Of a stretch of 64,000 nt of DNA, positions 50,438 to 56,846 are shown piece by piece (the first letter of the stretch is position 1; the number at the start of each line of letters is the position of its first letter). The DNA is from Gammaproteobacteria bacterium (GTDB taxonomy: Bacteria > Pseudomonadota > Gammaproteobacteria > VBWC01). The notes beneath the pieces were generated by a model. It did not search any database. It had not been told where the DNA came from and saw only the letters and a program-made list of their open reading frames with translations. A program made the translations under genes and the position numbers. The DNA is taken from assembly GCA_006218035.1 (NCBI GenBank), contig VBWC01000004.1, positions 97,537 through 161,536 of the forward strand, written 5' to 3'.

Positions 50438-51026
50438 CGCGGCCTACGCCCGCGCAGTTTCAAGTTGCACGTTGCAGGTGACAAGCACGTAGGATGCGGT
50501 GAACGCCGTGAACCGCATCGGTCGCGAACGATGCGGTTCGCTCCTCACGGCATCCGACGGAACTCAGCGCAAACTCGGCTTACCGACAACTCAAAACCTC
50601 AATTGATGCCGTCCGGGCGACACCTGGCCCGATCCATTGGCACCGTGAGGCGACTGCGTGATAGATTACATTTTGGTGTATTTCCCCGCGCCGCATAATC
50701 GTGCGAAGTCAGCAAAAGACAAGTCGTCGCTCCGATAACGGCGCGCTTAACTGATTGAGCTGCTATTGTTTTCCGATGCCGTGCTATCTTCAGGCTGGCG
50801 CTGGCTGGCAGCGATTCTGTAATGTAGGCGTTGCGTGAAATACCCCAAAGTGGGGTGTTATAACGGCAATTATATACTTGACAAAGCGGCGACACAGTTA
50901 TGCAGAGTTACGCAAAATTGCTCAAACATGCGCAGAATGGGACAAATTGTCTTGTGGTAAACAGAAAGTTTTAGTAAGTTCTGCTTACGCGGTCTGCTAT
51001 CTAATATCAGATAGCTTGATGGAAAG
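50438..51026. other. Non-coding gap marking the start of the accessory region
   Basis: No gene is seen. Contents: a REP-like doublet (50489-50558), a small hairpin ACCCC-aaagt-GGGGT near 50843, a TTGACA hexamer near 50878 without a good -10, and GCTATCT..AGATAGC near 50996. Base composition drops from GC-rich to locally AT-rich from about 50750 on. An open frame running into the tRNA-like sequence is not coding in style. Confidence 0.5.
50489..50558. repeat. REP-like palindrome doublet after lipA
   Basis: Two adjacent palindromes, GTAGGATGCGGT..AACCGCATC and GATGCGGTTCGC..ACGGCATCC, joined by GGTCGCGAAC. They belong to the same family as the doublets at 10174-10270 and 56609-56678. Confidence 0.6.
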
Positions 51027-51099
51027 AGCGGGTGACGAGAATCGAACTCGCGTCGGCACATTTGGGCAAACGGCTGCTCTGCCATTGAGCTACACCCGC
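51027..51099 (-). tRNA. Degenerate tRNA-Gly-like sequence (pseudo-tRNA)
   Basis: A 73-nt stretch with intact acceptor stem (GCGGGTG/CACCCGC), D arm (GCTC..GAGC) and T arm (GCGAG-TTCGATT-CTCGT) resembling bacterial tRNA-Gly. The anticodon arm fails: 23 bases lie between D and T arms, five-pair stems around TTGCCCA do not form, and a pyrimidine would sit at position 37. No CCA follows, unlike the other two tRNAs here. A minus-strand terminator lies directly upstream. Probably non-functional or repurposed. Confidence 0.5.
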
Positions 51100-51283: not shown

Positions 51284-51436
51284 ATGGCTTGGGTAGCCCC
51301 GCACGACATGGCGAAATCCGGGCAGAAATCAGTCAAAGATCAGGAATTTGAGGCAGCGGTGAAAGCATTGCTTTCTACTCCGCCGCAACCGAAGAAGCGG
51401 AAGTCCAAGAAGCAGTCGAAGGGCGGTAAGAAGTAA
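51284..51436 (+). CDS. Small lysine-rich protein, unknown
   Basis: A 50-codon open frame; a second ATG at 51308 would give 42 residues. The middle (DQEFEAAVKALLSTPPQP) could form a helix ending in a proline turn and the last 15 residues are mostly Lys, Arg, Ser and Gly, as in a nucleic-acid binding tail. No ribosome site is evident. It lies between a strong terminator and the palindrome-rich element. I do not recognise the family with certainty. Confidence 0.45.
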   Translation: MAWVAPHDMAKSGQKSVKDQEFEAAVKALLSTPPQPKKRKSKKQSKGGKK

Positions 51437-51441
51437 AGAAG

Positions 51442-51717
51442 TGGCGGTCACCGTCCAGTTACCTAGTTAGTACGCGAATACTACCTAGGTAATGACCGAT
51501 AGTGAGCACGAACGTGCTCAGTATGGCCAAAGCGAACACGGGTATAGGACCGTACATGTACGGTCTTATCCCGTTTGGTCACCATAAACATAATGATGAT
51601 CCTCCCTTGGGTGGACGGTGGAAGCCGTCCAGCACCGATGCATACTGCATGCACCGTGCCCGTTACAGTGCCCTATAGGCACACATCAGTGACCCAAAAA
51701 AGGAGCGGTGACCGCCA
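51442..51717. mobile_element. 276-bp palindrome-rich element with 12-bp terminal inverted repeats
   Basis: Ends TGGCGGTCACCG and CGGTGACCGCCA are perfectly complementary. Inside are successive hairpins: arms TTACCTAGTTAGTA/TACTACCTAGGTAA (one mismatch, 51459-51492); TGAGCACG/CGTGCTCA (51503-51520); the 18-bp palindrome GACCGTACATGTACGGTC (51548-51565) nested in GGCCAAA/TTTGGTC; GGACGG/CCGTCC; GTGCC/GGCAC. GGTNACC occurs at 51446, 51577 and 51707, about 130 bp apart. No coding frame. It could be a MITE, a structured RNA or a recombination site. Confidence 0.6.
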
Positions 51718-51756
51718 AGGTAATAATAGTCCTGAATCTCAAGGACTTGCAACTCA

Positions 51757-51911: not shown

Positions 51912-51934
51912 TTTAAGGGGTCAGAGCCCTTAAA
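51912..51934. repeat. GTCAGAG-centred palindromic element, copy a
   Basis: Arms TTTAAGGG and CCCTTAAA flank the centre GTCAGAG. An identical 23-bp copy is at 52720-52742. Related shorter forms lie at 54692-54709, 55988-56003 and, inverted, near 58769-58784. A gene fragment ends exactly at its edge. Confidence 0.7.
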
Positions 51935-52027
51935 CTAAGGCGGTCTACGGAGGAATGCCCGGGATGCGGGGTACAATACGTCACCGGCCCGAATTGCGCC
52001 CGATACGCACCTTCTCAGGAGTGTGAT

Positions 52028-52651: not shown

Positions 52652-52719
52652 CGTGGTCACCCGAGGCGACAGAAGACCTTGAGGCTATCGCGGACTATAT
52701 TGCACGGGATTCCGCAAGT
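52636..52719 (+). pseudogene. Truncated ParE/RelE-family toxin
   Basis: The first 28 codons (MDVEVAWSPEATEDLEAIADYIARDSAS) match the start of ParE toxins, which normally have 90-100 residues. The gene is then replaced by the palindromic element at 52720 and the frame turns into unrelated sequence. The remaining catalytic and binding residues of ParE are missing, so it is inactive. Confidence 0.7.
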
Positions 52720-52742
52720 TTTAAGGGGTCAGAGCCCTTAAA
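52720..52742. repeat. GTCAGAG-centred palindromic element, copy b
   Basis: Identical over 23 bp to the copy at 51912. It cuts the toxin gene on its left, and on its right a gene fragment starts directly with FQTEWVAQI codons. Element edges thus coincide with two gene breaks. Confidence 0.7.
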
Positions 52743-56603: not shown

Positions 56604-56608
56604 TCCCG

Positions 56609-56678
56609 CAGGATGCGGCGGGAAACGAACCGCATCGATCGCGAACGATGCGGTTCACGTTGTTCACCGCATCCTGCA
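56609..56678. repeat. REP-like palindrome doublet after the hemerythrin gene
   Basis: AGGATGCGGCGGGAAACG..ACCGCATCG and GATGCGGTTCACG..CACCGCATCCTG are inverted to each other around ATCGCGAAC. Same family as 10174-10270 and 50489-50558. Confidence 0.6.
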
Positions 56679-56846
56679 ACGCTCTCAACGTGGAACCATC
56701 GAATAAATTGGGGGAAGAGCCTGAGGTTTCCCCACATACCCGCGTGACAATTCAGCAAGTTACGGGATAATCGCCGATTAAAAACCGAGCGTGCATGGCG
56801 AGCTTTTTAATTCCTTCCGGTTCCGCCACCTCGAAGGAGATTCACG

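Follow-up and report, generated by a model that had tools for sequence, protein, structure and literature searches.

The element and the DNA around it

The window (the whole 64,000-nucleotide stretch of DNA that was analysed) contains at 51442-51717 a 276-bp element, which a preliminary description had presented as a series of hairpins enclosed by perfect 12-bp terminal inverted repeats. The arms at 51442-51453 and 51706-51717 are indeed perfect inverted repeats, the 18-bp palindrome GACCGTACATGTACGGTC is present close to the centre, and we counted more than the five inner hairpins given as a minimum. The fold is far beyond chance on both strands. The plus strand reaches an MFE of -129.4 kcal/mol (z = -8.9) and the minus strand -137.6 kcal/mol (z = -8.45), and 0 of 200 dinucleotide shuffles was equally stable on each strand. 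The BLAST copy-number check proposed earlier found a single copy in the 3.0-Mb genome, and BLASTN against 184 relatives returned no further copies. Searches of the window element and five relatives with the Rfam 15 covariance models gave no match up to E = 5.

In the only sister species compared, about 1.2 kb of different sequence stands in place of the segment from 50434 (the end of lipA) to 60274, about 9.8 kb, and we regard the element as accessory DNA because the stretch that carries it is absent there. The right flank of this segment is a TPR-glycosyltransferase-like gene. A tRNA-Gly(GCC) with a modest score of 47.5 bits lies within the segment on the minus strand (51026-51099), and the corresponding position of the sister genome has none. 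Positions 50488-50560 and 56607-56680 carry a palindromic, REP-like repeat about 70 bp long, of which the sister genome G001 has many copies. A ParE gene near the element appears to be interrupted after residue 27, and a short repeat like TTTAAGGGGTCAGAGCCCTTAAA is found near this broken gene, at about 51913-51940 and 52700-52730. A small lysine-rich ORF (51284-51436, 42-50 aa), convergent with the microprotein gene described below, ends 6 bp before the left arm; it was considered as a partner of that gene and rejected, and searches of 273 other genomes and of phages, plasmids and viral contigs found nothing related to it.

The minus-strand microprotein gene and its relatives

The element had been called non-coding, with no open frame, but its minus strand carries a 36-codon ORF behind a Shine-Dalgarno (SD) site (Table 1). 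The motif GGTNACC does recur at about 130-bp spacing, as had been noted. The spacing is coincidental: one copy falls on each strand of the closing helix, and the third, in the middle, lies within codons 3-5 of the minus-strand gene (ATG GTG ACC).

Table 1. Features of the putative transcription unit in window coordinates
Feature	Position	Strand	Basis
-35 box TTGCAA of the inferred promoter	51747..51752	-	best sigma70-like site of the locus
-10 box TATTAT, 18-nt spacer	51723..51728	-	sequence; promoter peak in relatives
Transcription start, inferred	about 51717, first base of right arm	-	promoter position
Closing helix, 5' strand (right terminal repeat, TGGCGGTCACCG)	51706..51717	-	pairing; recurrent in relatives
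Anti-SD strand, CTCCUUUUUUGGGU	51692..51705	-	pairs with 51600-51612
Structured leader (hairpins), anti-SD strand to SD	51613..51691	-	fold
Shine-Dalgarno site GGGAGG, 9 nt before ATG	51601..51606	-	sequence; fold probabilities
ORF, 36 codons plus stop, MFMVTKRDKTVHVRSYTRVRFGHTEHVRAHYRSLPR	51481..51591	-	ORF, SD, PHROG 21154, profile search, predicted beta-hairpin
3' untranslated stretch, stop codon to closing helix	51454..51480	-	sequence
Closing helix, 3' strand (left terminal repeat)	51442..51453	-	pairing; relatives

The window copy served as the sole basis of a first covariance model, which weakly matched a sequence in Methylohalomonas lacus. The two are homologous over the length of the match, whose middle, without the conserved ends, scores 25 compared to a shuffled mean of -52 (sd 11). 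The resulting two-sequence covariance model recovered more relatives, one of which has the compensated outer stem TGGCGCTCGTCGC / GCGACGAGCGCCA; the stem-conservation check proposed in the preliminary description thus yielded homologues in which the outer stem is kept through compensatory change. A degenerate pattern taken from the ungapped core of six copies matched at least 120 viral contigs, with about one expected by our own estimate. Read on the opposite strand, this core is the protein motif V.V..Y.R.R.G..E.V..H.R..P, and the ORFs that carry it have mostly 27-46 codons, nearly all begin with ATG behind an SD-like site, and stop soon after the motif. We had considered that the covariance-model relatives define a new non-coding RNA family, and abandoned this reading because the conserved core turned out to be a minus-strand coding motif. 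The nucleotide pattern itself fixes some motif codons, so the viral set is biased by it and its ten invariant columns are partly imposed. Independently of the pattern, the family is supported by the copies in the window and in M. lacus, by the match to PHROG 21154 and by the relatives that protein or profile searches recovered.

Other searches were less productive. Exact scans of viral contigs for the arm pair and palindrome gave only two chance matches in coding DNA (L057, L058), end-pattern scans of viral and genome contigs found no true relative except that of M. lacus, and BLASTN searches of phages and plasmids were negative. We discarded loci L127 (an RTX-like repeat), L126, L128 and L130-L132, which we took for chance matches or coding sequence.

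By length alone, the window ORF is one among many small ORFs, and we call it a gene because of conservation and selection. Its product matches PHROG 21154 with E = 2.4e-13 (residues 3-35 on profile positions 11-45 of 47), as do seven tested relatives, and a profile search of the window genome returned the ORF with E = 1.9e-15. Pfam and PADLOC had no model for the peptide, and NCBIfam had none above the cut-off. Across 41 close pairs of relatives, which overlap and so are not independent, pN is 0.072 and pS is 0.416 (pN/pS 0.17), and at the sequence level these pairs show purifying selection. Given this pattern of conservation, it is nearly certain that the minus-strand microprotein gene is real. 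AlphaFold2 predicts a beta-hairpin formed by residues 9-20 and 23-32, with pLDDT of about 90 there. The peptide is basic and soluble, with a sequence rich in R, K and H; the hydrophobic membrane character that is the usual trait of type I toxins is absent from it. Hok, for example, is a membrane peptide.

Relatives recovered by protein or profile search reside in phages, plasmids and chromosomes. Lambdoid immunity regions and transposons also carry relatives. About 2% of sampled Gammaproteobacteria have a copy (8/369, E <= 0.001), though one of these eight (G062) is doubtful and sits within a 500-aa frame. Among complete E. coli genomes, 232 of 5,426 carry a relative, many of them O157:H7, and no annotated feature underlies any of the 12 matches listed. 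Matches in 89 plasmids were obtained with tblastn, and nearly all of the matches listed are unannotated.

In lambdoid phages, relatives lie between cI and N. Elsewhere, the neighbours are AAA_13 ATPases (PADLOC PDC-S06), NYN proteins, HigB, DUF1778-GNAT and Xre-ImmA pairs, and one relative is near a RES toxin pair within a transposon that we assigned to the TniABQ type by sequence reading. Judged by gene content, these are the neighbours of accessory and defence cargo. At four loci (L163, L181, L186 and L135), an Xre regulator and an ImmA/IrrE-like protein adjoin the microprotein gene, and Pfam identified the peptidase domain in two of the three ImmA/IrrE-like neighbours tested; this recurrent pairing may be functional. 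At three others (L138, L165 and L259), a convergent AAA-type ATPase gene follows 17-38 nt after the microprotein gene, and the one such neighbour tested is an AAA_13 protein with a PADLOC PDC-S06 match. The M. lacus copy (L065/L066, G140:C1) is part of an integrative element that is flanked by a TPR gene and lolB and also carries genes for a tyrosine integrase, a DnaB helicase and a DUF5681 protein, a PDC-S42 gene and three methylase/type IIG genes.

Probable transcription unit and predicted mRNA fold

In 28 relatives that have a closing helix, the mean promoter score, calculated with a crude matrix, peaks where the -10 box starts 13 nt before the helix (5.0, compared to a mean of 2.0, sd 0.8). 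This position leads us to expect that the mRNA begins with the right arm. The 3' arm of the closing helix is located 28-39 nt past the stop codon. A scan for antisense promoters gave no clear site beyond peaks caused by start and stop codons.

In the modelled minus-strand RNA, the terminal repeats look like a helix that closes the 5' and 3' ends of the message, while a second helix looks to bury the SD site. Most pairs of the closing helix have a pairing probability of about 1.0. The anti-SD helix comprises 13 contiguous pairs, three of which are G-U, and for this reason it is complete in the minus-strand RNA only. The mean unpaired probability of AAGGGAGG, which spans the SD site, is 0.011 in the intact window RNA and 0.46 without the 5' strand, and removal of the 3' strand alone is predicted not to open the site. 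The modelled fold of the window gene is thus likely to be repressive.

In the comparison of relatives, only Watson-Crick pairs count towards the helix scores and each score is the best value within a window, for which reason we used swapped-partner controls. Closing-helix scores of at least 10 were found at 24% of 67 loci compared to 0.8% with swapped partners, and scores of at least 9 at 37% compared to 1.5%; among protein-selected loci, 2 of 11 reached a score of 9. The stems of different relatives have no common sequence (for example GGGTCCTCACCGGA, TTACCACTGAGGCAC and TAGTCACACTACC), and the lambdoid copy in phage Oslo has an apparent ordinary terminator at its 3' end instead of a closing helix. 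These sequence comparisons show a closing helix in many family members but not in all. Whole mRNAs have a mean z of -4.5, compared to -1.06 for upstream controls (p = 5e-13). Masking of the SD site across the family is modest: deletion of the first 60 nt raised the unpaired probability of the site from 0.33 to 0.43 over 71 loci (p = 0.0007), and complementarity to a locus's own SD reached a score of at least 8 at six loci, compared to 0.8 expected from swapped partners.

Interpretation and relation to known systems

Coding, family membership, the structured mRNA, the recurrence of the closing helix and the position of the promoter were all established computationally. On balance, we judge it probable that the element as a whole serves as transcription unit for a PHROG 21154 microprotein, and that this product is a phage effector whose translation is conditional and whose mRNA resembles those of type I toxins. 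Transcription of the minus strand would start at the right arm, as the promoter position suggests, and produce an mRNA of about 276 nt. Its 5' end would pair with the strand 3' of the ORF, which accounts for the terminal inverted repeats, and a U-rich upstream strand would pair over the SD site. With its ends paired and its SD covered, the intact mRNA is expected to be stable yet hardly translated. Disturbance of the fold, whether by end trimming, another RNA or infection, would presumably switch the gene on, and the peptide, which phages, plasmids and transposons carry, would then act as a conditional effector. The design of the mRNA and the neighbourhoods of the relatives suggest this role, most likely that of a type I-like toxin or of an immunity/anti-host peptide. 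Its toxicity is something that we infer only.

The same gene could instead encode a phage regulatory peptide, for example an accessory of the immunity region or of lysogeny, with a structured leader to tune its translation. The copies between cI and N, or beside cI-like or Xre/ImmA regulators, fit such a role, as does a basic, non-hydrophobic peptide with no PADLOC model. We nevertheless think it somewhat unlikely, given that other copies are far from phage regulators (in the RES-pair transposon, beside toxin-antitoxin genes and beside AAA_13 neighbours) and that fully closed mRNA ends are unusual in ordinary leaders. It is quite unlikely that the window copy is a decaying relic retained through recent acquisition alone. 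The gene is present once, among broken genes such as the ParE fragment, in a stretch that the sister species lacks, but it retains an intact ORF, SD site, promoter, closing helix and anti-SD helix, and so perfect a closing helix would quickly decay.

Two further readings would leave the gene aside. The A-rich unpaired bases of the plus-strand fold at first suggested that the plus strand encodes an independent non-coding RNA, and this fold's z of -8.9 and the relatives found by two-sequence covariance models are in keeping with this reading. However, the part conserved among relatives is the minus-strand coding frame, the minus strand folds better and with more G-U pairs (11 compared to 4), the promoter faces the minus strand, and Rfam has no match, which makes such an RNA highly improbable. 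The earlier suggestion of a structured RNA is thus correct as to structure, but the RNA is an mRNA on the minus strand rather than a non-coding one. Retron, intron, attC and OMEGA-RNA, judged by anatomy and neighbours, were rejected with no matching gene and no Rfam match. Perfect terminal repeats and absence from the sister genome would also suit a MITE, as had been proposed, or another small mobile element with transposase sites at its ends. Yet the genome holds one copy, the flanks (AAGAAG / AGGTAA) lack a target-site duplication, the arms of relatives are unrelated in sequence, and what the sister lacks is a segment of about 9.8 kb rather than 276 bp; we consider this reading extremely improbable. 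A recombination site or origin, also raised before, finds no support, given the lack of common arm sequence among relatives and the translated, selected ORF inside the element. A striking terminal inverted repeat can therefore be both ends of one mRNA and not a mobile element.

We return to the microprotein transcription unit as the favoured explanation. The gene is conserved and has been missed by annotation in well-studied genomes, E. coli included. If the closed fold does silence the peptide, then the family would represent soluble peptides without membrane character whose control resembles that of type I toxins, and a role in lysogeny or phage defence would be directly testable. More tentatively, and as a possibility rather than a probability, PHROG 21154 could form a large class, for the most part unannotated, of soluble beta-hairpin peptides that act as toxins or anti-phage effectors and travel on phages, plasmids and transposons; their hok- or AapA-like closed mRNA fold would persist while the stem sequences turn over completely.

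The window peptide belongs to PHROG 21154, a family with no assigned function that covers the protein alone. Neither an mRNA with closed ends and a masked SD nor the occurrence on plasmids and transposons is part of its description. By prediction, the window gene has the small ORF and the SD masked within a structured mRNA that characterize type I toxin-antitoxin systems, and this analogy makes it likely that its translation is controlled like that of a type I toxin mRNA. We do not claim membership of these systems, because toxicity is putative and no antitoxin was found. The full-length aapA3 mRNA of Helicobacter pylori has a long-distance interaction between its 5' and 3' ends, sequesters its SD and is translationally inert until 3' trimming (PMC6733600). 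The window gene resembles it in its tiny ORF and in its predicted paired mRNA ends and buried SD. In contrast, the sequences are unrelated, no antisense antitoxin was found here, and the window SD is masked by an upstream strand, such that 3' trimming alone is predicted not to open it. The hok/Sok mRNA also folds into an inert form with its SD sequestered (PMC6733600). It shares with the window gene a small ORF on a plasmid or phage and an SD hidden, here by prediction, in a folded mRNA, but the window peptide is basic with a predicted beta-hairpin. Most type I toxins are hydrophobic, and SymE and RalR are exceptions that are not membrane peptides (PMC7667032). Although SymE and RalR differ from the window peptide in being nuclease-like proteins, they are type I toxins that, like this non-hydrophobic peptide, have no membrane-peptide character.
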